48,275 nucleotides of DNA from Persephonella sp. (GTDB taxonomy: Bacteria; Aquificota; Aquificia; Aquificales; Hydrogenothermaceae), in contig NZ_WFPS01000049.1 of the NCBI RefSeq assembly GCF_015487465.1, positions 1 to 48,275 of the forward strand. The letters run 5' to 3'. The position numbers were made by a program, and so were the translations under genes. Below, piece by piece: positions 1 to 14,987 of the stretch. The notes below the pieces were generated by a model. It worked only from the letters and a program-made list of their open reading frames with translations. It was not told the origin of the DNA and searched no databases. Position 1 is the stretch's first letter; each line of letters begins with the position of its first letter.

Positions 1-819
1 AAAGAGCTACAGGAAAAGGGCGAAATTCCAACCCCTGCCCATGAAAAAGATATAAAGGATTACTTTTACAAAAAGTTTTTCACAAGATCTGCTATTGAGA
101 TCCTGAAGGAGTATAACCTTGATCCTGAAAAGGTTTATAAAGATATAGGCAAAAAAAGGATAGATAAAGGGGATCTGGAAAAATACATAAAAACAAAAAA
201 TATTCCCAGAGTGCAAAAACCAAGTGATATACAGAGCGTTTTAATAAAAAATCTCTCTAAAAGCACACAGATACCTGTTTATTACATAACCCATCAGTTT
301 GATATATCTCTGATACTGAAGCTGAAAAAATACACTGTAACATCTTATCTTATAAAAATATTCGGTGATGTTATGCAGGATCATCCGAAGGTCAGAACTG
401 TTTACAAAAACGGCATGTTTTATACATACCCATCATCAAACATCTCTGTTGCTATTTCTGTAGGTGAAGAACTTTTTAATCCCACAATAAAAAATGTTGA
501 GACAAAATCTTTGAAACAGGTTTATGAAGATCTGCAAAACCTTAGGAAAAAATCTGAAGAAAAAAAGCTGACAGTAGAAGACATACAGGGGGCAACATTT
601 TCAATCTCAAACCTTGGTATGTTTGGCATAAAACAGTTTTTTCCTGTTATCCCTCCATTTCACAGCGGTATAGCTGGGATAGGTGCTGCTGTTGATGGTG
701 TTATCTCTGTGGCTTTTACCTTTGATCACAGGGTTATAAACGGTGTTCAGGCAGCCCAATTTGTAATAGAACTTGAAAAAAAGATGAAAAATGAGAAATA
801 CATAAAATCACTTAAATAG
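1..819 (+). CDS. 2-oxoacid dehydrogenase E2 component (dihydrolipoyl acyltransferase), 3' part
   Basis: This frame is open from base 1 with no stop, so the gene begins upstream and the lipoyl domain is outside the window. The visible 272 residues contain a divergent peripheral subunit-binding segment (about residues 27-67, around FFTRSAIEILKEYNL) followed by the C-terminal part of the CoA-acyltransferase domain. Supporting motifs are SISNLGMFGIKQF, PPFHSGIAGIGA and DHRVINGVQAAQF. E2 enzymes move acyl groups from lipoyl-lysine to CoA in pyruvate, 2-oxoglutarate or branched-chain complexes; the substrate cannot be told here. The catalytic signature is usually HRxxDG, but here it reads HRVING, with Asn (codon 739-741) where Asp is expected. 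The subunit-binding segment also lacks the usual glycine-rich loop. A GTG at 211 is internal to the domain and is unlikely to be the start. The gene overlaps the convergent gene at 808 by 12 bases. Confidence 0.88.
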   Translation, partial: KELQEKGEIPTPAHEKDIKDYFYKKFFTRSAIEILKEYNLDPEKVYKDIGKKRIDKGDLEKYIKTKNIPRVQKPSDIQSVLIKNLSKSTQIPVYYITHQFDISLILKLKKYTVTSYLIKIFGDVMQDHPKVRTVYKNGMFYTYPSSNISVAISVGEELFNPTIKNVETKSLKQVYEDLQNLRKKSEEKKLTVEDIQGATFSISNLGMFGIKQFFPVIPPFHSGIAGIGAAVDGVISVAFTFDHRVINGVQAAQFVIELEKKMKNEKYIKSLK

Positions 820-3204
820 CTCTTCAAATGGTTTTGGTTTGCTTAGGAAAAATCCCTGAGAGTAATCTATGTTCAGAGCTTTTACCATCTCGTAAACATC
901 TTCGTTATGAACAAACTCGGCTATTGTTCTTATACCAAGTTTCTGGGCAAATCCTACAATTGTTTCAACAATTATCTGGGAATAAATGTCCGAATGTATG
1001 TTTCTTATCAGTGATGAATCTATTTTTATGTAGTCCACATCAAGTTTTAGTATATACTCAAAGTTTGAGTATCCTGCTCCAAAATCATCAAGGGATATCT
1101 GACCTCCAAGATTTTTTACCTCTTTTATGAAGCCTGACACTTCCTCATAATTTTCAATACCTTCTGATTCAAGAATTTCAAAAATAACCCTATTTTTGTA
1201 AACAGGCTGGCTCATATATTCAAAAATAAGCTCTGTGATTTCTCTGTTTGTAATATCTTTTACAGATAGATTTATTGAAAACTGATAAGGAAGGTTTTTA
1301 AAATCTGTGAATGTTTTTTTTATAGCTCTTTTAGTTATTTCAGGATAAAGTCTTGCTTTTTTTGATATTTCAAGAAACATTCCGGGAAGTATTACTGATC
1401 CATCTATATCTATTATTCTGACGAGTGATTCAAATTTTTCAGCTTTCCCTGTTTTGTTGTCAAAAATAGGCTGGTAAAAAACAGTAATTCTATTGTTTTT
1501 TAATGCTTCTTTTATTTTTCTTGTCATAAGGATATTTGTTTCATAAAGCTCTTTCATCTGGAGTTTTTCTGTGTAGTAAACTATCGGTTTTTTATTTTCT
1601 TTGGCGTATTTTAATGCCATATCAGCTTTGTTTAAGATGTTGTGATTTTCAAAAGATATACCTGCTGTAAGGCTGAGGTGTATTTCATAATCTTTGTAAG
1701 GAATTGGGTTTTCCTGCACTTGATAAATTATGTTGTTGATGATTTTTTCAAACTCTTTGGTCTGTATGTATCTAACCGATAATACGGCGAACTCATCTCC
1801 AGAAAGTCTGTAAACATTAAAATTTTTTTCAGGGAGAAAGCTTCTTATCGTTTCTCCCAGCTTTTTCAGGACATAGTCCCCGACTTTATGCCCGTAAAAA
1901 TCATTTATTTCTTTAAAGTCATCAATGTTCAAAATGGCAAGTTTTGGGTTTACCGTCGTTTTTAGATCCTCAATTAGCTTTATTCTATTGGGAAGGTTTG
2001 TGAGAGGGTCTGTATACAATCTTTTTTTCAGTTCTTCCTCTCTCTGGACAAGTTCCGTTATGTCTCTTTTTATACCTACATAATACCGAATATCACCTTT
2101 CTCATCTTCAACAGATATAGCAACGATATCAAGGTGTTTTACCTCCCCTTTACGGTTTTTTATTGTTGCCATAAATCTTAATCTTTTTTTTCTTTTTAGG
2201 TCTTCCCATACATCAATAGGATTTTCTATTTTTAATATTTCTGAGAAATGTTTTCCTCTTATTTCGTTTATGTTATACCCTAATAGTTCCTCGTTGGACC
2301 TGTTTTGGTCAACATACCTCCCTTCTGCATCTATTATTCCTATAGCATCAAGTGTGTTTTCAAATATTGTTTTATACAGCAGAAGTTTTTCTTCTTTTGC
2401 TTTTATGTCTGATATATCCTTTAGAATGATAATAAAGCCTGTTATACGGTTGTCGTGTATCAGTGGGGAAACAACCACAAACATGGGTATTTTTGAATGA
2501 AGATCTGTGTAAATACAGCTGTATGTTTTTGATCTGTCTTTTTCTTTAAAGTTATTGATAAACTCTTTTAGAGTTTTTTCTCCGTTTTCTGAGGTTGTTA
2601 CTTTTATGTTGTCCAGAAAGTTTTTATTTTTTTGAAATAGTTCCTGTGCAGACTTGTTAAGGAGAACCACATCGTTGTTTTTATTAATTACAACCAGCAT
2701 ATCTGGAGTGCTTGATATAACATCTTCAAGGAATGTTTTTATTTTTTTTAGCTGTTTCGTTCTGTTTTCAACAAGAAATTCTAATGATTCTGCATACTCT
2801 TCAAGTTTTTCTTTAAGAAGGTCAAGATAAACAAGATCTCTGGCGTTTACTATTATCTGTTTAAGGTTTCCTTCTTTATCCTTTATGCCTTTTACCTTCT
2901 TAATTACTCTGATTTTTTTTCCATTTTTAGTTTTTAGAAAAACCTCCTGATCAGGACAAAAATCCTTTTCTTCCACGATTTTTAAACATCTTTTGAAATC
3001 ATCTTCCCTTTCTATAATCTTTAACACAGGTTTTCCTATAATTTCTTCAGGTTTAAAACCGAGAACCTCTGTGAAAGACCTGTTTATGTAGGTGATGGTT
3101 CCATTTGCATCTATTGAGAATATAATATCCGGAGAATAATCTAATAAATTTTTAAAATCAATATATTTTTTGGATCTTTTCATAATAAATTCACTTTTTT
3201 TCAA
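808..3204 (-). CDS. PAS-PAS-PAS-GGDEF-EAL cyclic-di-GMP signalling protein
   Basis: Soluble 798-residue sensor with three PAS domains (about 15-125, 160-270 and 275-390; cores near YSPDIIFSIDANG, SSTPDMLVVINKN and TLDAIGIIDAEG). A charged helix joins the first two. A GGDEF domain (about 395-550) and an EAL domain (about 560-798) follow. The GGDEF signature is SGDEF (468-472) with no RxxD inhibitory site five residues upstream. The EAL signature is ESL (592-594). Other phosphodiesterase motifs look intact: NLSVKD, DDFGAGYS, KIDSSL, QGFFLSKP. It could make or degrade c-di-GMP; phosphodiesterase activity seems the better guess. The start used is TTG at 3204, preceded by AAGG and overlapping the upstream gene by 14 bases. 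An ATG at 3183 (residue 8) is a reasonable alternative but has no clear ribosome site. It is probably cotranscribed with the two small genes upstream. Confidence 0.9.
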   Translation of the reverse strand: MKKSEFIMKRSKKYIDFKNLLDYSPDIIFSIDANGTITYINRSFTEVLGFKPEEIIGKPVLKIIEREDDFKRCLKIVEEKDFCPDQEVFLKTKNGKKIRVIKKVKGIKDKEGNLKQIIVNARDLVYLDLLKEKLEEYAESLEFLVENRTKQLKKIKTFLEDVISSTPDMLVVINKNNDVVLLNKSAQELFQKNKNFLDNIKVTTSENGEKTLKEFINNFKEKDRSKTYSCIYTDLHSKIPMFVVVSPLIHDNRITGFIIILKDISDIKAKEEKLLLYKTIFENTLDAIGIIDAEGRYVDQNRSNEELLGYNINEIRGKHFSEILKIENPIDVWEDLKRKKRLRFMATIKNRKGEVKHLDIVAISVEDEKGDIRYYVGIKRDITELVQREEELKKRLYTDPLTNLPNRIKLIEDLKTTVNPKLAILNIDDFKEINDFYGHKVGDYVLKKLGETIRSFLPEKNFNVYRLSGDEFAVLSVRYIQTKEFEKIINNIIYQVQENPIPYKDYEIHLSLTAGISFENHNILNKADMALKYAKENKKPIVYYTEKLQMKELYETNILMTRKIKEALKNNRITVFYQPIFDNKTGKAEKFESLVRIIDIDGSVILPGMFLEISKKARLYPEITKRAIKKTFTDFKNLPYQFSINLSVKDITNREITELIFEYMSQPVYKNRVIFEILESEGIENYEEVSGFIKEVKNLGGQISLDDFGAGYSNFEYILKLDVDYIKIDSSLIRNIHSDIYSQIIVETIVGFAQKLGIRTIAEFVHNEDVYEMVKALNIDYSQGFFLSKPKPFEELFK

Positions 3205-3709: not shown

Positions 3710-4549
3710 TTGCTTATAAGAAAAATAAAAGATATGAAACAGATTGTAAAAAGATTAAAAAAAGAAGGTAAAACTATAGGTTTTGTTCCCACAATGGGAT
3801 ATCTCCATGAGGGTCATACCTCTTTGATAAGGTGCTCAAAGAAGGATAACGATATTACGGTAGTAAGCATATTTGTCAATCCTATACAGTTTGGGGAAAA
3901 TGAGGATTTGGACAGGTATCCAAGAGATTTAGATAGGGATATAAGGATATGTGAAAAAGAAGGTGTTGATTATGTTTTCTACCCGTCTGCCGGTGAGATG
4001 TATCCTGAAGGTTTCTCAACATTTGTTGAGGTTGAGGGGATAACAAAGAGGCTGTGCGGTGCTTTCAGACCGGGGCATTTTAGAGGTGTTACCACTGTTG
4101 TTAATAAACTTTTTAACATCGTTCAGCCAGATAGAGCATATTTTGGGGAGAAAGATTACCAGCAGTTAAAGGTTATTCAAAAAATGGTAAGAGATCTTAA
4201 TATAGATGTTGAGGTTAAAGGTTGTCCACTTATTAGAGAAAAAGACGGTCTTGCCCTGTCTTCAAGGAATAAATACCTCACCCCTGAGGAGAGAAAATCA
4301 GCCCTTGCTATAAGCAGAGCACTGTTTAGGGCAAAACAGATGTTTGAAAGAGGTGAAAGAGATCCTTCAAAAGTAGTAGATGAGATAAAAAGGATCATCT
4401 CTTCACAACCTTTGGTAAAAGAGATACAGTATGTTGAGGTTGTTGATCCAGAAGATTTAACACCTAAAAAAAAGTTAGAAAAAGGTGATGTTGTGGCTGT
4501 TGCGGTTTTTGTGGGAAACACAAGGCTTATAGATAATATAAAACTGTAA
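3710..4549 (+). CDS. panC: pantothenate synthetase (pantoate--beta-alanine ligase)
   Basis: Joins pantoate and beta-alanine with ATP to make pantothenate, the vitamin precursor of coenzyme A. At 279 residues it has the usual family length. Key motifs are FVPTMGYLHEGH (the HIGH-like ATP site, His33 and His36), VSIFVNPIQFG, RPGHFRGVTTVVNKLF, DRAYFGEKDYQQL and REKDGLALSSRNKYL. Translation starts at TTG 3710, set by a perfect ribosome site. It lies 10 bases before moxR and could share its transcript. The later CoA enzyme coaBC is also in this window, at 28136-29308, but in a separate operon. Confidence 0.97.
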   Translation: MLIRKIKDMKQIVKRLKKEGKTIGFVPTMGYLHEGHTSLIRCSKKDNDITVVSIFVNPIQFGENEDLDRYPRDLDRDIRICEKEGVDYVFYPSAGEMYPEGFSTFVEVEGITKRLCGAFRPGHFRGVTTVVNKLFNIVQPDRAYFGEKDYQQLKVIQKMVRDLNIDVEVKGCPLIREKDGLALSSRNKYLTPEERKSALAISRALFRAKQMFERGERDPSKVVDEIKRIISSQPLVKEIQYVEVVDPEDLTPKKKLEKGDVVAVAVFVGNTRLIDNIKL

Positions 4550-4559
4550 AGGAGTTTTT

Positions 4560-5489
4560 ATGGAAGTAAAGAATGAAAAGATAAAACAGATCATAAGCAC
4601 CCTCTCACAATTTCTTCAGGGTAAAGAGGAAGCTCTCAGGCTTTCTTTGATAACTTTTTTTTCTAACGGGCATCTTCTTATTGAGGATCTTCCGGGGCTG
4701 GGGAAAACAACACTTGCTGTTGGAATAGCGAAGATAACAGGACTGTCTTTTGGGAGAGTTCAGGCAACAAGTGATCTGCTTCCAACAGACATAACAGGAC
4801 TTTCTATTTACAACAAGCAGACTGAAAAGTTTGAGTTTCACCCGGGACCTATATTTAACAATGTTGTTCTTGTTGATGAGATTAACAGGGCAACACCAAA
4901 GACACAGAGCGCTCTCCTTGAGGCGATGGGAGAGAAGCAGGTAACGATAGAAGGGGAAACCTATAAACTTCCAAAACCTTTTTTTGTTATCGCAACACAG
5001 AACCCTGTAGAGCAGTACGGAACATTCCCACTTCCTGAATCACAGATGGACAGGTTCATGATGAAGATAAGCGTAGGGTATCCCTCAAGGGAGGCAGAAA
5101 GGGAGATACTCAAAGGCGGAAGTAAAAGGGAACAGCTTTATAAGATAAAGCCTATAATGGACAAAGATCAGGTTGTTGAAACACAAAAAGAGATAGATCA
5201 GGTGTATCTTTCAGACAAAATAGTTGAGTATATTCTTGATATAGCAGAGGCAACAAGAAGATCAAAATATTTTTCAGCCGGTCTTTCTATAAGAGGAACC
5301 CTTGCTCTGGTGAAAACAGCCAAGACAAGTGCATATTTTAACGGAAGAGATTACGTTATACCTGAAGATGTAAAAAGTCTCCTTCCCTATACAGTTGTCC
5401 ACAGGGTTCTGCTCCATGAGGTTTATGAAAATACAGATCACAGGGAGATTGTGCTATCGGTAGTGGAAAATATACCCGTACCGGCTTAA
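4560..5489 (+). CDS. MoxR-family AAA+ ATPase
   Basis: 309-residue MoxR-type ATPase. Visible motifs are Walker A (LPGLGKTT, about 45-51), Walker B (VVLVDEINRA, about 102-111), the conserved MoxR segment TPKTQSALLEAM, and the sensor segment VIATQNPVEQYGTFPLPESQMDRF (split here: VIATQNPVEQYG then TFPLPESQMDRF). MoxR proteins are thought to act as chaperone-like ATPases that help assemble or activate partner complexes. They usually sit beside DUF58 and transglutaminase-type membrane proteins, exactly as here. It is preceded by AAAGGAG and ends at a TAA (5487-5489) that abuts the next frame. The physiological client is unknown. Confidence 0.95.
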   Translation: MEVKNEKIKQIISTLSQFLQGKEEALRLSLITFFSNGHLLIEDLPGLGKTTLAVGIAKITGLSFGRVQATSDLLPTDITGLSIYNKQTEKFEFHPGPIFNNVVLVDEINRATPKTQSALLEAMGEKQVTIEGETYKLPKPFFVIATQNPVEQYGTFPLPESQMDRFMMKISVGYPSREAEREILKGGSKREQLYKIKPIMDKDQVVETQKEIDQVYLSDKIVEYILDIAEATRRSKYFSAGLSIRGTLALVKTAKTSAYFNGRDYVIPEDVKSLLPYTVVHRVLLHEVYENTDHREIVLSVVENIPVPA

Positions 5490-6349
5490 TAAAAATAACA
5501 AAAGCTGGCTGGATATACATAACTCTGACAATCCTGTTAGGGATTGCTGCTGTTAATACAGGGAATAACCTTGTTTACCTGATAGAGGCAGCAATGCTGA
5601 GCTTTATGGTAATTTCTGGCTTTATAGGAAGAAAAAACCTTTCTGGACTTGATCTTGAGATTGATCTTCCTGAGGAGATATTTGCAGGAGTAGAGTTTCC
5701 TGTAAAGATAAAACTGAAAAACAAAAAAAGATTTTTTCCGTCTTTTCTAATAGTTTTCCATTTTGAGGACAAAAAGTTTGTTGTTCCTTATATAGACCCT
5801 CAAGGCTCTTTTACATTTCATATAAACCATACTTATAGAAAAAGAGGAAAATTTTATCTAAGAGAATTTAATATCTGTTCTGTTTTCCCTTTTAACTTTT
5901 TTATCAGATGTATAATCTACATGAAAAAAATTCCTGTTGTTGTTTATCCCTTCCCAAGAAGATGTGGTTTTCCTTACGATTACTCAAAGGCAGGAAAAAG
6001 CGAAGGGACTGTCCATTCTGATAAAAGGGGACATCAGGGAGATATAATCTCCATAAGAGATTACTCAGAAGGGGATCCTCTGAAATACATACACTGGAAG
6101 GCATCGGCAAAAACAGGCAAGCTTAAAACTAAAGAGTTAGGAGAAATATCCCAGAGACCTGTGGTTATAGATCTTGATGCGATTGAAGGAGACATAGAAA
6201 GGAAGGTTTCATGCGGGGCATACCTTATTATAGAGTTATATAAAGCGTCTGTTCCTTTCGGGCTGAAATACGGCAAAAAGTTTTATAGACCTGAATGCTC
6301 AAGAAAACATAAAGCTTTACTACTTGGGGAGCTTGCACAGATAAAATGA
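5489..6349 (+). CDS. DUF58 membrane-anchored protein; start codon apparently ATA
   Basis: 286 residues if begun at 5489. The N-terminus is typical of DUF58 proteins: a hairpin of two membrane helices around ITKAGW, GIAAVNTGNNLVYL and LSFMVISGFIG. The C-terminal half carries the DUF58 core (DIISIRDYSEGDPLKYIHWK, then KTGKLKTKELGE). Between the in-frame TGA at 5426 and the ATG at 5594 this frame has no ATG, GTG or TTG. The conserved hairpin is nevertheless encoded there in frame. ATA at 5489 stands exactly where ATG would be expected, overlapping the moxR TAA. Starting at 5594 would remove most of the hairpin. Function is presumed linked to MoxR and the transglutaminase in a cell-envelope complex. 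The gene is certain; the start is not. Confidence 0.85.
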   Translation: MKITKAGWIYITLTILLGIAAVNTGNNLVYLIEAAMLSFMVISGFIGRKNLSGLDLEIDLPEEIFAGVEFPVKIKLKNKKRFFPSFLIVFHFEDKKFVVPYIDPQGSFTFHINHTYRKRGKFYLREFNICSVFPFNFFIRCIIYMKKIPVVVYPFPRRCGFPYDYSKAGKSEGTVHSDKRGHQGDIISIRDYSEGDPLKYIHWKASAKTGKLKTKELGEISQRPVVIDLDAIEGDIERKVSCGAYLIIELYKASVPFGLKYGKKFYRPECSRKHKALLLGELAQIK

Positions 6350-8244
6350 TAAAGGTAAAAAATGTTGTTTATATTCTGAGCTATCTGATAGGTTTTATAG
6401 GTTTTTTGGCTGTTTTCAGGTATGTTGGAGGATTGTATTCTGCTGTTTTTCTATCACTACTGATATTTGGGGTTTTTGTTGACAGAAATGAAAGGGAGGT
6501 AATCCCAAGAATTTTCCTTAACCTTATTTCTCTTGCTGTTGTTGTTTACCTGTTTTTCAGGGTTTCTGAGGAAGATCTTGTTGTCCCTGTTCTTGAGACA
6601 CTGCTACTTCTACTTGGGATAAAGTTTGCTGAGAAAAAAGAGTTCAGAGATTTTATGCAGATTTACACTATATCGGTCTTTCTTCTTGCAGGTTCTGCAC
6701 TTCTTACTATTGATATTTCTTTTATGTTTTTCTTTATGTTCCTTTTTTTCAGCACAGTTCTGGCAATCATACTGCTGACATACTACTGGCAGGACAGGGA
6801 TCTTTCTTTTGATAGGGATACTTTTAAAAAAATAATTAAAGGATCTTTAGCCATTCCACTTATGGCGATCCCTTTTACTGCTCTGCTTTTTGTCGTTCTT
6901 CCAAGAACAGAGCAGCCTGTTTTTAGCTTTTTCAATTTTGGTTCCCAGGGAAAGACAGGTTTTTCTGATATCGTTGAACTTGGTGATGTTTCAAATATAC
7001 AGGAAGTTGAGACTGTAGCTATGAGAATAAAGGTAAACGGAAAGATAGACCCTGAAAATGTTTACATCAGGGGTGTTGTTCTTAACTTTTTTGATGGAAA
7101 AAGATGGCTTAGAAAAAATATAGATGAGAATGATTATGTTGATATAAAAAATCCTGTTCTTCAGGAGATCATATTAGAGCCAACAGGTAGAAGATATATT
7201 CTTGCTTTTGATACACCTGTAAAAATAAACCTAAGAGGTGTTCAGAAAGATGGGGATTACGTTTTCAAATACAGTAAAAATATATATTCAAGAATAAAAT
7301 ACACAGCCATTTCTGATATAAAAGCTGTTATAAAATCTGATCAGATAGATCGCCTGATTTATACACAGCTTCCAAAGGATATACATCATGAAATCAGGAA
7401 ACTTGCTCAGAAATTAAAGGGAGAGAACACAAAAAAAACTGTTGACAATGTTGTCGGTTATCTAAGGAACAGCTACAGATACACATTAAAAAATCTACCT
7501 GCAGGTAATGATCCGGTTTACAGATTTTTATTTGTGGACAAAAAGGGAAACTGTGAGTATTTTGCTTCTTCTGCAGCAATGCTTTTGAGACTTAATAAAA
7601 TACCTGTAAGGCTTGTTGCAGGCTACAGGGGAATGAGGTATAACGAAATAGGGGATTATTATATTGTCCCTTACAAATATGCACACACATGGATAGAGGT
7701 TTATATGAATGGGGAATGGATCAGGTTTGATCCTACACCTTCCTACTCTGCTTATGTGATCGGAAAAAAAGAGGAAGGCTTATCTGAGAAGATCAGACTC
7801 ATTTTTGATGCTATAGAGTATGCTTACATTAACAGCATTATCAATTACGACATAAAAAATCAGTTGTCCCTTTTGAGAAAAACTGAAGGCTTTGTTTTTT
7901 CCTTTGGTAAAGATTTAAGAAAAGTAAAAGAGTTTCTACCTTATGTTTTGGTATTGATTGTTTTAAGTATGTTTGTATTTCTTTTCGTGAAAATCAAACT
8001 TGAGAGTTATGAGGAAAGGCTGATAAAAATTTTTAACAAAAAAATGGAAAAGTTAGGATACAAAAGAAAAGAGAATGAAGGGCTTGAGGAGTTTGCAGAA
8101 AGAATAAGAGATGATGAAATAAGAAAAAAAGCGTTAATTTTTGTAAAAGAATTTGAAAAAGTGTATTATACAGACAAAAAAATAGATAAGAACCTTTACA
8201 AAGAATTATTATCACATATTGATAATATCAATATAAAAGGTTGA
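6346..8244 (+). CDS. TgpA-like membrane transglutaminase
   Basis: 632-residue membrane protein. The N-terminus (about 1-190) has several hydrophobic helices of the DUF3488/TgpA type. A long non-cytoplasmic region follows, then a transglutaminase-like cysteine-protease fold and a final membrane helix near 540-560 with a charged cytoplasmic tail resembling DUF4129. The catalytic triad is visible: Cys403 (KKGNCEYFASSAAMLLR), His447 (YAHTWIEVY) and Asp462 (RFDPTPS). The start overlaps the DUF58 stop as ATGA, showing translational coupling within the MoxR-DUF58-TgpA operon. Substrates of these proteins are poorly known. The gene overlaps the convergent 8212-10572 gene by 33 bases. Confidence 0.92.
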   Translation: MIKVKNVVYILSYLIGFIGFLAVFRYVGGLYSAVFLSLLIFGVFVDRNEREVIPRIFLNLISLAVVVYLFFRVSEEDLVVPVLETLLLLLGIKFAEKKEFRDFMQIYTISVFLLAGSALLTIDISFMFFFMFLFFSTVLAIILLTYYWQDRDLSFDRDTFKKIIKGSLAIPLMAIPFTALLFVVLPRTEQPVFSFFNFGSQGKTGFSDIVELGDVSNIQEVETVAMRIKVNGKIDPENVYIRGVVLNFFDGKRWLRKNIDENDYVDIKNPVLQEIILEPTGRRYILAFDTPVKINLRGVQKDGDYVFKYSKNIYSRIKYTAISDIKAVIKSDQIDRLIYTQLPKDIHHEIRKLAQKLKGENTKKTVDNVVGYLRNSYRYTLKNLPAGNDPVYRFLFVDKKGNCEYFASSAAMLLRLNKIPVRLVAGYRGMRYNEIGDYYIVPYKYAHTWIEVYMNGEWIRFDPTPSYSAYVIGKKEEGLSEKIRLIFDAIEYAYINSIINYDIKNQLSLLRKTEGFVFSFGKDLRKVKEFLPYVLVLIVLSMFVFLFVKIKLESYEERLIKIFNKKMEKLGYKRKENEGLEEFAERIRDDEIRKKALIFVKEFEKVYYTDKKIDKNLYKELLSHIDNINIKG

Positions 8245-10572
8245 CCTATTTTTACCTGTAAGTTTTGAGTGGTACATGGCAAAATCTGCATTTTTCAGTA
8301 TTGATTCTATATCTTTAGAGTCTTCAGGGAATATGGATATTCCTATACTTACCCCTATTTTTATCTTTTTTTCGTCAACAGTATACTCACCGCCTACAAT
8401 TTTTATTATTTTGTCAGATATTTTCTTTAATACATCTTTGGTATAAACCCCTTCTATCAAAATAACAAATTCATCTCCAGCAAGCCTTGCAACAAAATCA
8501 TCTTTTCTTACTGAAGATTTAAGATTTTTTGCAACTTTTTGAAGAAGTTTGTCCCCTATTTCATGTCCGTAAGTATCGTTAACCTGTTTAAATCCGTCAA
8601 GATCAATAAAAAAGAGAGCGACCTTTCCGTTTTCATCTTCTGCTTTTTCAATAGATGTTTTTAGCTTATTAAAAAAGTAAACCCTATTTGGTAGTTTTGT
8701 GAGATTGTCGTAATAGGCAAGATTTTTAAGTTTTTTCTCTTTGTGCTTTCTTTGTGTTATGTCGGATATCATTATGATATAGTTTGTTGTTTCACCTTTG
8801 TTTTTAACCTTTATTACAGAAAGCCAGACAGGAAAAATCTCTCCTGATTTTTTCCTTCCTGATATTTCCCCTTGCCATTTACCTGTGGTATCTGCTGTTT
8901 TAAAAATCTCTTTGAAAGTTCCTTCATCATTCTTAAAGACAGGAAGCTGATCTATATTCCAGCCTAATATCTCTTTTTTTGTGAACCCTGTTATCTCAGA
9001 AAAAGATCTATTTACCCTTAGTATAGATCCTTTGTTGTCTGTAATAATTATTCCTTCAAGGGCATCTTCAAAAACCATAGATGCAAGTTTAAGTTCTTTT
9101 TCCACAAGTTTTCTTTCTGTAATGTCCCTTATGATCAGCTGTATAAATTTCTTTCCTTTGATCTCAAAAATGCTAGCAGATACTTCTGCTGGAAATGTGG
9201 ATTTTGTGCTGGTTACAACCTGTGCTTCAAATCTAATGTGCCCATTTATATACAATCTTTTCTGCCATTCTTTGTAAACCCTTGCGAACCTTTCTTCAAA
9301 TATATCCTTCAAATTAAGCAGCAGTATATCAAATTTGGAATATCCTAATTTGTAAACAGCCTTCTGATTTATGTCTTTTATGTTTCCGTCCATATCAGTT
9401 ATTATGATGGCGTCGTTTGAGAACTCAAACAGATTTCTGTATCTTTCCTCATTTTCAAGAACTTTCTGGTATACAAGATGTATGTCTGTAACATCTTGAA
9501 CAATGCCGAGAACTATAGGATTTTTTCCTTTTTCTTTTAGAACTTTTACCTTTTCTCTGATTATTTTTTCCTTTTCTCCTGAATAAATCCTGTATTCAGC
9601 CTCGTAGGGAACAAGCTGGGTTATTGAGAGAACTCTTTTTTCTTTGATCTCATTTCTGTATTCAGGAAGTATGTATTCAATAAACCTATCAAATGTCATT
9701 GAGCATCTTCTGTCCTGTCCACAGAATATAAACATCGCCTCTTCAGAAAGCTCAAATCTCATATCAGGAAGATGAACTTCCCAATATCCAACTTTAGCCA
9801 TTTTTTGGGCTTCTCTCAGTTTTTCTTTTGTTTCTTCAAGTTTTTCTTTTGTCCTTAGGAGTTCTTTTTCTCTTTTTATTTTTTCTGTTATATCCCTGAG
9901 AATACCAAGGACAGCATTTTTACCAGCATACATTATTAGAGAAGGGTTCACCTCAAAGATTTTGTCTTCTTTGTTTTTTGATTGGAGCTTGATAATCTTC
10001 TTTTTACCGTCTGGGGAGAGAAGTTTCTCAATGTCTTTGGCAGTAATAAATTTCTGGATATCTCTGCCGATTATCTCCTCAGGTTTGTATCCTAATGTTT
10101 CATAAATCCTTGGGTTTACATATTTTATACTGCTGTCCTGCACGATGATAACAATATCGTTTATCCCTTCAACAATACTTTTCCATTTTTCTTCCTGTTC
10201 TTTCAGTATCTTTTCCCTGTGCTCTTTTATATCAAGCCATTTTTTTATACCAATAAGGACAAGAGCTATACCGGGAAGTTTTATAAATATCTCTGTTATT
10301 GACAGGACATAAAGAGGTTGGTTTGTCAGGAAGAAGGATATCAGATTAGCCTGAGATATTGTGATAAAAAAGAAACCAAAATTTAGATTTTTGTAAACTG
10401 ATGGAAGATTTTTTAGCCTTTCAACAAGATGAAAGCCTATTAATATGGCAATGAAAGCAATAATATTTGGTATAAGTTGAGAATAGATTATTTGTTTTTG
10501 GATATTATAATAATATATATTTATTAATACAACTGTAATACCGAAGATGATAGCAGAGAGAATTTTTAACAT
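8212..10572 (-). CDS. membrane PASx4-GGDEF diguanylate cyclase
   Basis: 786 residues. About four membrane helices fill residues 1-110. Four PAS-like domains follow; three have clear cores (SIVEGINDIVIIVQD, LFEFSNDAIIITDMDG, FEDALEGIIITDNKG) and one is divergent, near QKMAKVGYWEVHLPD. The C-terminal domain is a GGDEF domain (about 620-780) with NLTKLPNR, FFIDLDGFKQVNDTYGHEIGD and the signature AGDEF (698-702). An RKDD inhibitory site (689-692) lies five residues upstream. These features fit an active, product-inhibited diguanylate cyclase responding to a membrane or redox/ligand signal. There is no EAL domain. A GGGGGAG ribosome site precedes the ATG closely. It is divergent from the ribbon-helix-helix protein at 10718. 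Confidence 0.92.
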   Translation of the reverse strand: MLKILSAIIFGITVVLINIYYYNIQKQIIYSQLIPNIIAFIAILIGFHLVERLKNLPSVYKNLNFGFFFITISQANLISFFLTNQPLYVLSITEIFIKLPGIALVLIGIKKWLDIKEHREKILKEQEEKWKSIVEGINDIVIIVQDSSIKYVNPRIYETLGYKPEEIIGRDIQKFITAKDIEKLLSPDGKKKIIKLQSKNKEDKIFEVNPSLIMYAGKNAVLGILRDITEKIKREKELLRTKEKLEETKEKLREAQKMAKVGYWEVHLPDMRFELSEEAMFIFCGQDRRCSMTFDRFIEYILPEYRNEIKEKRVLSITQLVPYEAEYRIYSGEKEKIIREKVKVLKEKGKNPIVLGIVQDVTDIHLVYQKVLENEERYRNLFEFSNDAIIITDMDGNIKDINQKAVYKLGYSKFDILLLNLKDIFEERFARVYKEWQKRLYINGHIRFEAQVVTSTKSTFPAEVSASIFEIKGKKFIQLIIRDITERKLVEKELKLASMVFEDALEGIIITDNKGSILRVNRSFSEITGFTKKEILGWNIDQLPVFKNDEGTFKEIFKTADTTGKWQGEISGRKKSGEIFPVWLSVIKVKNKGETTNYIIMISDITQRKHKEKKLKNLAYYDNLTKLPNRVYFFNKLKTSIEKAEDENGKVALFFIDLDGFKQVNDTYGHEIGDKLLQKVAKNLKSSVRKDDFVARLAGDEFVILIEGVYTKDVLKKISDKIIKIVGGEYTVDEKKIKIGVSIGISIFPEDSKDIESILKNADFAMYHSKLTGKNRSTFYIDIINM

Positions 10573-10620
10573 ACTCCCCCAGTTTTTATGAATTAATTAT
10601 TTATATTAACTTTTTTTAAC

Positions 10621-10655
10621 AAAATATACAAGAACATATTTTCAATTTAAAATAT
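10621..10655. promoter_or_regulatory. AAAATAT inverted repeats in the divergent GGDEF intergenic region
   Basis: AAAATAT (10621-10627) and ATATTTT (10636-10642) form perfect 7-base arms separated by 8 bases. A third AAAATAT lies at 10649-10655. The sites overlap the predicted -35 box of the plus-strand gene. They could be half-sites for a ribbon-helix-helix regulator, possibly the neighbouring gene product, but AT-rich DNA makes such matches easier by chance. Confidence 0.35.
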
Positions 10656-10667
10656 TTGTTATATAAT
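10639..10667 (+). promoter_or_regulatory. sigma-70-type promoter for the RHH-PAS-GGDEF/EAL-like gene
   Basis: TTTTCA (10639-10644), a 17-base spacer and a perfect TATAAT (10662-10667) predict transcription starting near 10674, about 45 bases before the chosen ATG at 10718. Confidence 0.5.
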
Positions 10668-10717
10668 TTTAAGGAGTGTTGTTAATAATTATCATTTTTA
10701 ATAAGGCGGGGAGGCTC

Positions 10718-12607
10718 ATGGCTGCAAAAAAGACTGTATTAAGTATAGCTATTGATAAGGGCTTACTAACAAAGCTCAAGGAGTTATCCAAAGAGAAAGG
10801 ATACTCTGTTTCTAAGTTGATCAGTAAGCTCCTTGAAGAAGCTCTGTACCTTGAAGAAAATGTTTTTAAAGATGAGATCTACAAAAATATTGACTGGCTT
10901 AGCGAAGAGTGGAAGGATAAACTTCAGGTTCTTTTTACAAAGGTTCTTGATACAACACCTGACCCTGTATGGATAAAAGATCTCAATTTGAGAATAATTT
11001 ATGTTAATCAGGCATTTGCTGATCTGTTTGGGGTTAAAAAGGAGGAGATTATCGGCAAAAGCGATATTGAGTTTTTACCCCCTGAAGTTGCTAAAGAATG
11101 TATTTACTCGGATATGAAAGCTCTTGAAAGTAAACAGTCGTCACACTCTGTAGAGAAAATAAAGGCGGCTGATGGAAGGGAGATAATATTTGATGTGATA
11201 AAAACCCCAATTTACGACAAAACAGGAAAAATTATAGCCATTTTAGGAATATCAAGGGACATAACAGAATTTGTCAGGATTCAGGAAGAACTTGAGGAGA
11301 AAAATAGGGAACTTGAAGAGGCTTACAGAAAACTTCAGGAAATATACGAGTATGACATAGTCACAGGTCTGATCAAAAAGAGAAGATTTCTTCAGACTGT
11401 AAAAGAAAGCTTAGAAGAACTTCCTGAGGGAGAACAGTACACTCTCATAAATATAGAGATATCAAACCTTGTTTATGCAAATGAGATGTATGGATATGAG
11501 TTTGGTAGCAAACTTCTGAAGGAATTTGCTAAAAAACTGAGAGAAAAGCTTGATGAGATGGGGTTTGAGTATGTTCTCGGTAAGATCGGTGGGGACAAGT
11601 TTGGGCTTCTTATTAAAGATGACATAGTAAACAGAAGCATACTTAAAAAATTCCTGAATTTTGTTAAATCTATAAGAGTTCCCACCCCAGATGAGGAGAG
11701 CTTTTTTGTGCCGAAAATAATTTTTGCTGTGAGAAAAGTTGCTAAACAGGATATACCGGATGTAGAGAAGATACTCCTACAGATGGAAGATGTCCTTCTC
11801 CACCTTAGGGAACACGCAAAAAGGAACTTTGTTATTTTGAAAAATCAGCCGACGATTTACAGAAAGGTTATAGAGTTTGAGAAAAAAATTAAGAAAAGCC
11901 TTGAAGAGAAAAAGTTTGATATAAAGCTGAAACCTGTAAATGATTTGAAAGACAATTCTGTCCACGGTTATCAGGTTGTTTGCGGTTTTGAAGACATTTC
12001 TGAAAGGGATATATGTCAGCTTCTTGAAAATGCGTATATAGACAGCGTTCTGAAGGTTGTTGATCAAAGGGTTTTTGAGTTTATTAAGAGGAAAATTTAT
12101 CCTAAAACAGATAAGACAATTTTCGTAAGGCTCCGGCAATCAACAATAGATAAAGTTTTTAATCTTCCTGAAGACAAAATAACAAAGGATATAATTTATA
12201 TTAAAGACAAATCTGTTTTTATGGTTTCGGAAAATATTTTTATAAATAACTACTCAAGCATACTTGAGCTTAAAAATTCTTATAACCTGAAGTTCTGTCT
12301 TGATAATTTTGGTGCAGGAAATACATCAATAAAAACGCTGACCAGAATGATAGAACACAATCTTTTCCAGTATCTTAAGATTAACGGCTCTTTTATAAAA
12401 ACATCAATAAATTCAGCAAAAAGGGAAAGAATACTTAGAGGCGTGATAACTGTTAGTAAGGAGTTTAATATAAAAACCATTGCTTCTGATGTTGATTCTG
12501 AAGAGATACTTGATTTTGTGAAGAATGTAGGTTTTGATCTTGCTGAAGGGGAGTATATTGGAGAAGCGGTAAGTCTGGAGAGTGCTATGCTACACCTGCA
12601 AGGTTAA
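10718..12607 (+). CDS. ribbon-helix-helix / PAS / degenerate GGDEF / degenerate EAL protein
   Basis: 629 residues from the ATG at 10718, which has GGGGAGG just upstream; GTG at 10676 would overlap a possible ribosome site. Residues 1-45 resemble a CopG/Arc ribbon-helix-helix DNA-binding domain (strand TVLSIAID, helices LLTKLKELSKEKG and SVSKLISKLLEEAL). A PAS domain (about 75-195, VWIKDLNLRIIYVNQAFADLFG) and a coiled-coil linker follow. The GGDEF-like domain has GGDKF (291-295): the catalytic Glu is Lys and no RxxD site is present. The EAL-like domain (about 395-629) lacks the EAL motif and also keeps only traces such as DNFGAGNTS and LKINGSF. It is probably a non-enzymatic nucleotide-binding regulator acting on DNA or another partner. 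It overlaps the end of recG by 23 bases. Confidence 0.88.
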   Translation: MAAKKTVLSIAIDKGLLTKLKELSKEKGYSVSKLISKLLEEALYLEENVFKDEIYKNIDWLSEEWKDKLQVLFTKVLDTTPDPVWIKDLNLRIIYVNQAFADLFGVKKEEIIGKSDIEFLPPEVAKECIYSDMKALESKQSSHSVEKIKAADGREIIFDVIKTPIYDKTGKIIAILGISRDITEFVRIQEELEEKNRELEEAYRKLQEIYEYDIVTGLIKKRRFLQTVKESLEELPEGEQYTLINIEISNLVYANEMYGYEFGSKLLKEFAKKLREKLDEMGFEYVLGKIGGDKFGLLIKDDIVNRSILKKFLNFVKSIRVPTPDEESFFVPKIIFAVRKVAKQDIPDVEKILLQMEDVLLHLREHAKRNFVILKNQPTIYRKVIEFEKKIKKSLEEKKFDIKLKPVNDLKDNSVHGYQVVCGFEDISERDICQLLENAYIDSVLKVVDQRVFEFIKRKIYPKTDKTIFVRLRQSTIDKVFNLPEDKITKDIIYIKDKSVFMVSENIFINNYSSILELKNSYNLKFCLDNFGAGNTSIKTLTRMIEHNLFQYLKINGSFIKTSINSAKRERILRGVITVSKEFNIKTIASDVDSEEILDFVKNVGFDLAEGEYIGEAVSLESAMLHLQG

Positions 12608-14987
12608 ATTTTTCCCCGTATTTTCTAAACACAAGTTTTTTCAGGAGAGGGTGCTTTTCAAGGTAAGGATCCTCTCCTATCAGCTTTTCTGCTTCTATTC
12701 TTGCATTATCAAGTATCTCTTTGTCTGTGTCCCTTGTGAGATCTGCAAGACCAAAGCTGAACCTTCCAGACTGGGCTGTTCCCATTATGTTCCCCATTCC
12801 TCTAAGATCCTTGTCTGCCTCAGCTATCTTAAATCCATCTGATGTTTTCACAAGTATTTTAAGCCTTTCCAATGCCTTTTCTCTTTTTTTCTCAAATTCA
12901 GGATTGTCAGATCTATATCTGAACTCTTCAGGAACAACTAAAAAGCAGTACCCTTCATAGTTTCCCCTTCCTATTCTTCCTCTAAGCTGGTGTATCTGTG
13001 ATAGACCGAACCTGTAAGCATCTTCAATAACCATCACCGAAGCGTTTGGTATGTCAACCCCAACCTCAATTACAGTTGTTGAGACAAGAATGTCTGCTTT
13101 CTGGTCTCTAAACTTTTCCATTATCCTGTCTTTTTCTTCCTGTGTCATTCTTCCATGTAGAAGGAGGATTTTTCTGTCTGGGAATGCTTCTTTCCACCTT
13201 TTGTAACCTTCTTCGGCAGATTTAAGATCTATTTTTTCAGATTCCTCAATCAATGGGTAAACAACAAAAACCTGTCTTCCTTTGTCAAGCTCTTTTTTTA
13301 TGAAAGAGTTCATTCTTTCCCTTTCATCTTCGTAGTATATTACTGTTTCAACCTTTTTTCTTCCTGCAGGCATCTGCTTTATCAGTGAAAGGTCAAGGTC
13401 TCCAAACTGTGTCAAGGAAAGGGTTCTCGGGATAGGTGTTGCAGTCATAACAAGAACATGGGGAACTTTTCCCGATTTTTCTATCAGGGCTTTTCGTTGT
13501 TCAACTCCAAACCTGTGCTGTTCGTCAACTATCACCAGTGCAAGCTCTTTGAACTTTACCTCGTCCTGAATAAGTGCATGTGTTCCGACAACAACTTTTG
13601 CTTCCCCTGTTTCCATTTTTTTGTATATCTCTCTTTTTTCCTTTTGGGGCGTGCTTCCTGTCAGAATATAAACATCTATCCCGAATTTTTCCATTATCTG
13701 TTTAAAATTCCTGTAGTGCTGTTTTGCAAGAATTTCGGTAGGAGCCATTACGGCAACCTGTTTTCCTGATTGTGCAACCGCTAAAGATGAGGCGACAGCA
13801 ACAACTGTTTTTCCACTGCCTACATCTCCCTGAACCATTCTGTTCATAGGAAAAGGTTTTGATATGTCATTCAGAATGTCCCTTATTGCTTTTTTTTGAT
13901 CTAAGGTTAGATCAAAGGGCAGTGAACTTTCAAACTTCTGGATAAAATTCTTTTCTGTTTTTATTACAGGAGCTGGGTTTTCTTTAAGCATATTTTTCCT
14001 GTAAAAACAGGCAAGTTCAAGGATAAAAAGATCATCAAATATTATTCTCCTTTGATGTCTTGTATTAAACTGATTTAATTTATTAATATCTGTAATATAA
14101 TCAGGAAAATGGGTTTTTATAAGGGCTTCATGTAAAGAAGGGAAGTTATTCCTGATTTTTATAGGTTCAGGCAGGTATTCTGGGAAGGATTTTATGTATT
14201 TTTTTAAAATTTTAAATAAAGCCCTTCTTAGATGGTTGATGGTCTGTGAGGTTATTTTGACCGTAGTATCTCCTCTAAGAGAGTAAACAGGCAAAATTCT
14301 GTCAAGTATTATCTTATCAAACTGGTTAAAAATCTCCGGCTGTATCATGGATATATCTTTTCCGTAAACTGAGACTCTGCCGAACAGATAGACCTTTTTT
14401 CCTTTCCGGAAAAATGTGAATAAAAAAGGTCTGTCGTGAACAAAGTAAGCATTCAAAAACCTGTTTCCTTGTTTCAGAATAACCTGAGCCTTAAGTTTTC
14501 CTCTTTTTATTTTTTTAACCTCAACAACCTCCAGCTCAAGAAGGGCTGTTTCTCCATCTTTGATATTTGAGATTTTTTTAAGCCTTTTGTCTTCATACCT
14601 TTTAGGAAAGAAAAAAAGGGCGTCGTATAAGGTCTGAATTCCTACCTTTTTTAATGCTTTTTTCTCAACAGGCTTTAAAAAAGGTATCTGGTTTACCTCT
14701 ATTTTGAAAAAATCTTCAAATGATAACTTTTCTATCTCTTCCTGTTTTTTTTCTTGATTTTTCTGTGGTTTTATCTGCTGAAGGGTTTTAAGGGTGTAGT
14801 CTATGAGGGCTCTTTTTTTCTGAGGAGTTATCCTGTCTATATTTTTTATGTCTTCAAGCATTCCTTCAGGAAGATGATCTTTCAGCAGTGCAAAGAGGGT
14901 ATCAGAAACTTTTGTTCTTGAAAGGAGTGTGTCATCGTAATTTTTGATCTTTTCTAATATTGTTTTAGCCTGTTTTAGATTTTTCAT
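12585..14987 (-). CDS. recG: ATP-dependent DNA helicase RecG
   Basis: Branch-migrating helicase that remodels stalled replication forks and recombination junctions. At 800 residues it is longer than the roughly 690-residue E. coli type; the extra length is an N-terminal helical extension (about 1-110), as in RecG of deep-branching thermophiles. The wedge domain follows (KKISNIKDGETALLELEVVE region). Helicase motifs are clear: QGDVGSGKTVVA (Walker A), VIVDEQHRFGVEQR (DExH), VMTATPIPRTL and QLRGRIGRG. The C-terminal RecG domain contains DLRGMGNIMGTAQSG. Its ATG lies inside the upstream DUF1858 gene (23-base overlap), so it is translationally coupled to it. Confidence 0.98.
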   Translation of the reverse strand: MKNLKQAKTILEKIKNYDDTLLSRTKVSDTLFALLKDHLPEGMLEDIKNIDRITPQKKRALIDYTLKTLQQIKPQKNQEKKQEEIEKLSFEDFFKIEVNQIPFLKPVEKKALKKVGIQTLYDALFFFPKRYEDKRLKKISNIKDGETALLELEVVEVKKIKRGKLKAQVILKQGNRFLNAYFVHDRPFLFTFFRKGKKVYLFGRVSVYGKDISMIQPEIFNQFDKIILDRILPVYSLRGDTTVKITSQTINHLRRALFKILKKYIKSFPEYLPEPIKIRNNFPSLHEALIKTHFPDYITDINKLNQFNTRHQRRIIFDDLFILELACFYRKNMLKENPAPVIKTEKNFIQKFESSLPFDLTLDQKKAIRDILNDISKPFPMNRMVQGDVGSGKTVVAVASSLAVAQSGKQVAVMAPTEILAKQHYRNFKQIMEKFGIDVYILTGSTPQKEKREIYKKMETGEAKVVVGTHALIQDEVKFKELALVIVDEQHRFGVEQRKALIEKSGKVPHVLVMTATPIPRTLSLTQFGDLDLSLIKQMPAGRKKVETVIYYEDERERMNSFIKKELDKGRQVFVVYPLIEESEKIDLKSAEEGYKRWKEAFPDRKILLLHGRMTQEEKDRIMEKFRDQKADILVSTTVIEVGVDIPNASVMVIEDAYRFGLSQIHQLRGRIGRGNYEGYCFLVVPEEFRYRSDNPEFEKKREKALERLKILVKTSDGFKIAEADKDLRGMGNIMGTAQSGRFSFGLADLTRDTDKEILDNARIEAEKLIGEDPYLEKHPLLKKLVFRKYGEKFNLAGVA

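Follow-up and report, generated by a model that had tools for sequence, protein, structure and literature searches.

A ribbon-helix-helix-PAS protein with degenerate GGDEF and EAL domains in Persephonella, a candidate one-component transcription regulator

The fusion of a DNA-binding domain to an EAL domain and the binding of c-di-GMP by a ribbon-helix-helix (RHH) domain are each known singly. The former is found in PdeL (YahA) of E. coli, a trigger phosphodiesterase of LuxR-type helix-turn-helix (HTH)-EAL architecture; it recognizes an imperfect palindrome within the promoter region of its own gene, and c-di-GMP inhibits its activation (PMC5052742). The latter is found in CdbA of Myxococcus xanthus, a small RHH nucleoid protein whose RHH domain itself binds c-di-GMP, with K8, S10 and Y12 of the strand exposed (PMC7156744). 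The trifunctional proline utilization A protein (PutA) is an autogenous repressor in which an RHH domain is fused to enzymes (PMC5293562), and an Arc-type RHH-HisKA-REC architecture has been reported for Lokiarchaeum (PMC5847659). We found no described family with the order RHH-PAS-GGDEF-EAL in the open-licence literature, which bears out the original prediction on this point, although this is weak evidence of absence because only open-licence papers were covered. We consider the architecture new and its working principle known.

We analyzed a stretch of 48,275 nucleotides from the genome of a heat-loving Persephonella (hereafter the window), in which the forward strand from 10718 to 12607 encodes a protein of 629 amino acids with this domain order. 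The ATG at 10718, preceded by GGGGAGG, is the start common to 20 orthologs, and the stop codon ends at 12607. The original prediction had placed the gene at 10573-12607; its end is retained and its start is not, since 10573 is the first base past the neighboring gene and 10573-10717 is thus intergenic. In the full-length protein, Pfam profiles identified PAS_4 (residues 77-187, 2.6e-22), GGDEF (212-327, 8e-11) and EAL (390-616, 3.7e-24), and these sequence-based identities are certain. The resulting layout, all on the forward strand, comprises an RHH domain (residues 1-48, 10718-10861), a linker (49-74, 10862-10939), the PAS domain (75-187, 10940-11278), a predicted helical connector (188-211, 11279-11350, within a predicted helix spanning 183-211), a degenerate GGDEF domain (212-372, 11351-11833) with GGDKF at 11588-11602, and a degenerate EAL domain (390-616, 11885-12565) in which QVV takes the place of the EAL motif (residues 419-421). 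The convergent recG gene (12585-14987, reverse strand) extends 23 bases into the end of this gene, and this overlap or close contact is conserved in several genera. Elsewhere in the window, 808-3204 (reverse strand) encodes a second PAS-GGDEF-EAL protein of 798 amino acids with strong GGDEF and EAL matches, adjoining panC (3710-4549).

The window protein shares with PdeL an N-terminal DNA-binding domain on an EAL protein; however, PdeL carries an HTH instead of an RHH, lacks PAS and GGDEF domains, and has an active EAL domain and a response to c-di-GMP. With CdbA it shares an RHH fold tied to the c-di-GMP field, but CdbA is small and stands alone without PAS, GGDEF or EAL domains, whereas the window protein is a large fusion with V7, S9 and A11 on its strand. 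PutA likewise has an N-terminal RHH on large enzyme domains, but these are active flavoenzyme domains unrelated to c-di-GMP, and it has no PAS domain (PMC5293562). The Lokiarchaeum protein also places an RHH at the head of a signaling protein, although it is followed by two-component domains rather than PAS-GGDEF-EAL. DosP, PA0861 (RbdA), FimX and LapD have the same C-terminal domain order as the window protein, and FimX and LapD are likewise degenerate; in contrast to it, none of the four has a DNA-binding domain; DosP and PA0861 have catalytic activity, and c-di-GMP is bound by FimX and LapD. A full-length model found its best PDB matches in the PAS-GGDEF-EAL proteins DosP and PA0861, the outcome to be expected from the C-terminal part; given the pTM of 0.46, the placement of domains in this model is not reliable.

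The N-terminus had been predicted to be a CopG-like RHH domain (residues 1-45), and this was confirmed by profile comparisons and a predicted fold. In the full-length Pfam scan, RHH families fell below their cut-offs (RHH_3, 16.7 versus 21.6 bits; DUF6364, 21.1 versus 27.3 bits). When the N-terminal 75 amino acids were scanned alone, RHH_3 passed (22.6 versus 21.6 bits) and DUF6364 just passed (27.6 versus 27.3), whereas RHH_1, the profile named in the original prediction, stayed below its cut-off (14.7 versus 20.5). Of 15 orthologs, 14 also gave an RHH_3 match at E<=1. We then aligned 26 RHH_1 proteins of related genomes and used hhalign to compare this alignment with the N-terminal segment (residues 1-50) of the orthologs. 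The match of 96.9% (E 1.4e-10) was collinear from residue 3 to residue 45, whereas five control segments taken from elsewhere in the protein reached only 0.2-2.5%. The AlphaFold model of residues 1-75 (pLDDT of about 71-86 in this block) contained an extended segment, with the strand at about residues 6-12, followed by helices at 14-27 and 31-48, which is the order of an RHH fold; strand pairing would require dimerization. Foldseek returned no match at E<=0.001 for this small model, with the RHH proteins MatP, Reg576 and VapB among the weak top matches, a result to which we give little weight. By sequence, the top PDB chain for the N-terminus was CopG (2cpg), at a non-significant E value of 0.93. 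Taken together, the profiles and the modeled strand-helix-helix order place the N-terminus in the RHH (CopG/MetJ/Arc) superfamily. Stand-alone RHH proteins also occur in this group: those of L137, a close relative, and L156 (match at 1501) have the strand ILSITV and are the nearest to the fused RHH, which may have originated from them. The L137 protein is 44% identical to it over 36 residues.

Membership in this superfamily leaves two uses of the domain to be weighed, DNA binding and dimerization or protein docking alone, the latter implying that the protein acts by protein contact, for example on the neighboring diguanylate cyclase, without binding DNA. In the CopG register, L8, I10 and I12 form the core and V7, S9 and A11 face the DNA, aligned with R4, T6 and T8 of CopG; these three residues are weakly polar, less so than the R-T-T of CopG, which favors a docking role. 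The adjoining linker, as the most conserved stretch, would offer a possible docking surface. However, K5, S9, S30 and S32 were invariant in 19 sequences, at positions that in RHH proteins lie close to the DNA or point toward it, with S30-x-S32 at a helix start in the phosphate-contact region, and the close stand-alone RHH proteins of the same genomes also count against docking alone, which we therefore consider unlikely.

The C-terminal domains appear to have lost catalysis. Residue-by-residue comparison found 5 of the 8 expected catalytic positions preserved in the GGDEF domain of the window protein and 3 of the 9 in its EAL domain, which upholds the prediction that a PAS, a GGDKF-type and an EAL-like domain are fused here with catalytic residues lost. 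In the GGDEF domain, GGDKF replaces GGDEF, the first metal-binding Asp is Glu and the Asp of YGHxxGD is Ser, unlike an active diguanylate cyclase. In the EAL domain, Gln takes the place of the Glu of the EAL motif, and the site residues N, E, D, E and Q are replaced by R, M, N, S and E, unlike an active phosphodiesterase. The routes of loss differ among relatives: GG[DNS][KR]F and SG[NY]KF are seen in Persephonella, and GDDLF, SGRTF and GEDEF elsewhere. At the fourth position of the GGDEF motif (residue 294, 11597-11599), all 11 Persephonella orthologs carry Lys or Arg, a conserved basic residue in place of the catalytic Glu. One ortholog alone, that of genome G080, is near-intact, with 7 of 8 GGDEF and 8 of 9 EAL positions. 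This ortholog would fit a trigger enzyme comparable with PdeL, that is, an active or weakly active phosphodiesterase or diguanylate cyclase that also binds DNA; for the window protein this is extremely unlikely, given its lower counts and the loss of both the EAL Glu and the GGDEF catalytic Glu. The dead domains are kept rather than decaying, as indicated by purifying selection on GGDEF and EAL (dN/dS of 0.03-0.07 for pairs where it was computable, rough values because dS is near saturation).

Such retention could also mean that the GGDEF-EAL pair binds c-di-GMP without cleaving it, as in FimX and LapD, and thereby turns the DNA binding of the RHH on or off. There are known cases of c-di-GMP binding by degenerate GGDEF-EAL proteins (PMC5052742), both FimX and LapD came up when the window protein was matched by structure and by sequence, and a diguanylate cyclase gene lies head-to-head with its gene. 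Of the features expected of receptors of the FimX/LapD type, the window protein shows, by sequence, the loss of catalysis but not the retention of c-di-GMP contact residues or an I-site. The RxxD I-site is absent from the GGDEF domain of the window protein (MGFEYVLGKIGGDKF at this place), and E419Q, E590S and Q610E change the ligand site of its EAL domain. Several of the lost EAL-site residues contact c-di-GMP in EAL receptors. In Persephonella the I-site is absent. Of the 11 Persephonella proteins, 5, the window protein among them, carry another residue instead of the EAL Glu, and all 11 have R or K instead of the EAL N and lack both the iAEgve Glu and the aQG Gln. A relative without the GGDEF and EAL domains, described below, also argues against this reading, which we judge improbable. 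The label of a c-di-GMP effector given in the original prediction is accordingly unsupported, because the window protein lacks the I-site and has lost most of the ligand residues of its EAL domain. If a nucleotide is bound, GTP is the better-motivated ligand, since N255, the guanine-contacting Asn, which reads guanine in PleD, was invariant in all 20 sequences compared. The degenerate GEDEF-type domain of Caulobacter PdeA binds GTP. Between the two inputs originally proposed, c-di-GMP or a PAS ligand, the latter fits better, with GTP as a possible second ligand.

We examined the distribution of the family with a profile of the first 190 residues across 136 Aquificota genomes. The RHH-PAS combination was found in 23 of them, in 6 genera of one family only, which we take to be the Hydrogenothermaceae; several genera of this family lack the gene. 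A scan of GTDB species contigs with six peptide patterns, which reaches close relatives only, gave 9 loci, all from Persephonella or Aquificota. Among the matches listed for plasmids and phages, all were PAS-only or GGDEF/EAL-only, and none covered the RHH start. Apparent paralogs matching residues 16-79 were also considered; the one inspected (L038) was a radC-like ORF of 237 amino acids and not an RHH-PAS protein. Mean pairwise identity among ten Persephonella proteins was 84% for RHH, 92% for the linker, 82% for PAS, 74% for the coil, 59% for GGDEF and 56% for EAL; the conserved part of the protein is its N-terminal half. The 26-residue linker (NVFKDEIYKNIDWLSEEWKDKLQVLF) exceeds both flanking domains in conservation within Persephonella, and it is shortened or absent in genus g4.

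The relative without the enzyme domains comes from a single assembly, G069 (99% complete), in which the syntenic gene encodes RHH-PAS alone (186 amino acids) and is flanked by cytochrome bc genes and recG, the arrangement also seen in G066 and G068. On its contig (L113), a gene for a HAMP-GGDEF protein (3770-5605, reverse strand) with GGEEF, an apparently active diguanylate cyclase, stands head-to-head with the RHH-PAS gene (5705-6265, forward strand), with 99 bp between them. G066 and G068 have no diguanylate cyclase at this place.

A divergent neighbor is also present in the window, where 8212-10572 (reverse strand) encodes a PAS-PAS-PAS-GGDEF protein with AGDEF and an RxxD motif, apparently an active diguanylate cyclase. 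Such a gene adjoins the RHH-PAS gene in Persephonella and G080, and in G069; the two arrangements look independent because the G069 cyclase resembles that of the window in the GGDEF domain only. The link between the two genes is only suggestive, because in other genera and in one genome of the Persephonella clade ribD or genes for an aminotransferase, a PALP enzyme or a cytochrome take this place. Flanking genes in general vary between genera, so that the RHH-PAS gene belongs to no fixed operon.

The 145-bp intergenic region (10573-10717) between the divergent genes contains a 22-base block (AACATATTTTCAATTTAAAATA) that is identical in six Persephonella genomes and is followed by the nearly invariant TTGTTATATAATTT, whereas coding dS is about 1 or more. 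The best sigma-70-like promoter of the RHH-PAS gene, TTTTCA-17-TATAAT (10639-10667, forward strand), is conserved and matches at 10 of 12 positions. A 20-bp near-perfect palindrome, ATATTTTCAATTTAAAATAT (ATATTTTCAA/TTTAAAATAT, 10636-10655), spans the -35 box and part of the spacer, a usual place for a repressor operator. This conserved, single-copy palindrome is our candidate operator: the block had no second copy in its own genome when up to 3 mismatches of a 38-mer or 2 of a 23-mer were allowed. The block may equally be a promoter only, and it is unrecognizable beyond close Persephonella. In G083, G088 and G092, the 23-mer recurs with two mismatches near unrelated genes, and we took these sites as promoter look-alikes. 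We also enumerated k-mers in 12 upstream regions for an operator motif across all lineages; the candidate GTTAATAAT was no better than dinucleotide shuffles, and only the -10 word TTGTTATATAAT beat them (lengths 11-12). The failure to find an operator motif shared across lineages, and a gene context that is not conserved between genera, would suit a nucleoid-associated or global DNA-binding protein like CdbA, with many sites and modest specificity. However, the window protein is a large sensor protein, unlike the small and abundant nucleoid proteins, the gene is missing in several genera of the same family, and K8 and Y12 of the CdbA-type strand are absent; we regard such a role as very unlikely. 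The likeliest target suggested by the sequence is local, namely the divergent promoter that the gene shares with the cyclase.

The RHH evidence, the conserved N-terminal half, the retention of dead domains and the RHH-PAS form in G069 support the reading as a one-component regulator; RHH and PAS are joined in one chain, and no HisKA or REC domain was found in the full-length protein by Pfam. The original prediction of a one-component regulator thus stands as the best reading, with DNA binding as a probable property; its proposed response to c-di-GMP is not supported. We propose a soluble one-component transcription regulator of Hydrogenothermaceae, whose N-terminal RHH would dimerize and bind an operator, most likely the palindrome at 10636-10655. 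The PAS domain would sense a ligand or redox state, and the signal would be relayed through the highly conserved 26-residue linker. The GGDEF-EAL pair would be a pseudo-enzyme that serves as a dimer scaffold and perhaps binds GTP, and would no longer make or break c-di-GMP. With its operator in the divergent promoter, the protein would control both its own gene and the apparently active diguanylate cyclase. DNA binding, ligand, target and direction of regulation are the parts of this model that we infer, and on balance we think that the model as a whole probably holds, with modest confidence.

These results suggest that a signaling enzyme has turned gene regulator, since the domains of c-di-GMP metabolism are present without their active sites. 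More tentatively, and with less confidence than in the model itself, we suggest that the ancestor was an RHH-PAS-GGDEF-EAL enzyme, of which G080 alone has a near-intact form. It may have lost catalysis by several lineage-specific routes, become an RHH regulator that is gated by PAS or GTP and acts on a divergent active diguanylate cyclase, and shed its enzyme part in G069. If this is true, the family would offer a natural series that leads from a trigger enzyme through a pseudo-enzyme to a simple one-component regulator. Should the protein work as we propose, some two dozen related genomes would allow this transition from enzyme to regulator to be traced and tested. It would also suggest a use for a conserved but dead GGDEF-EAL pair, namely the allosteric control of DNA binding.
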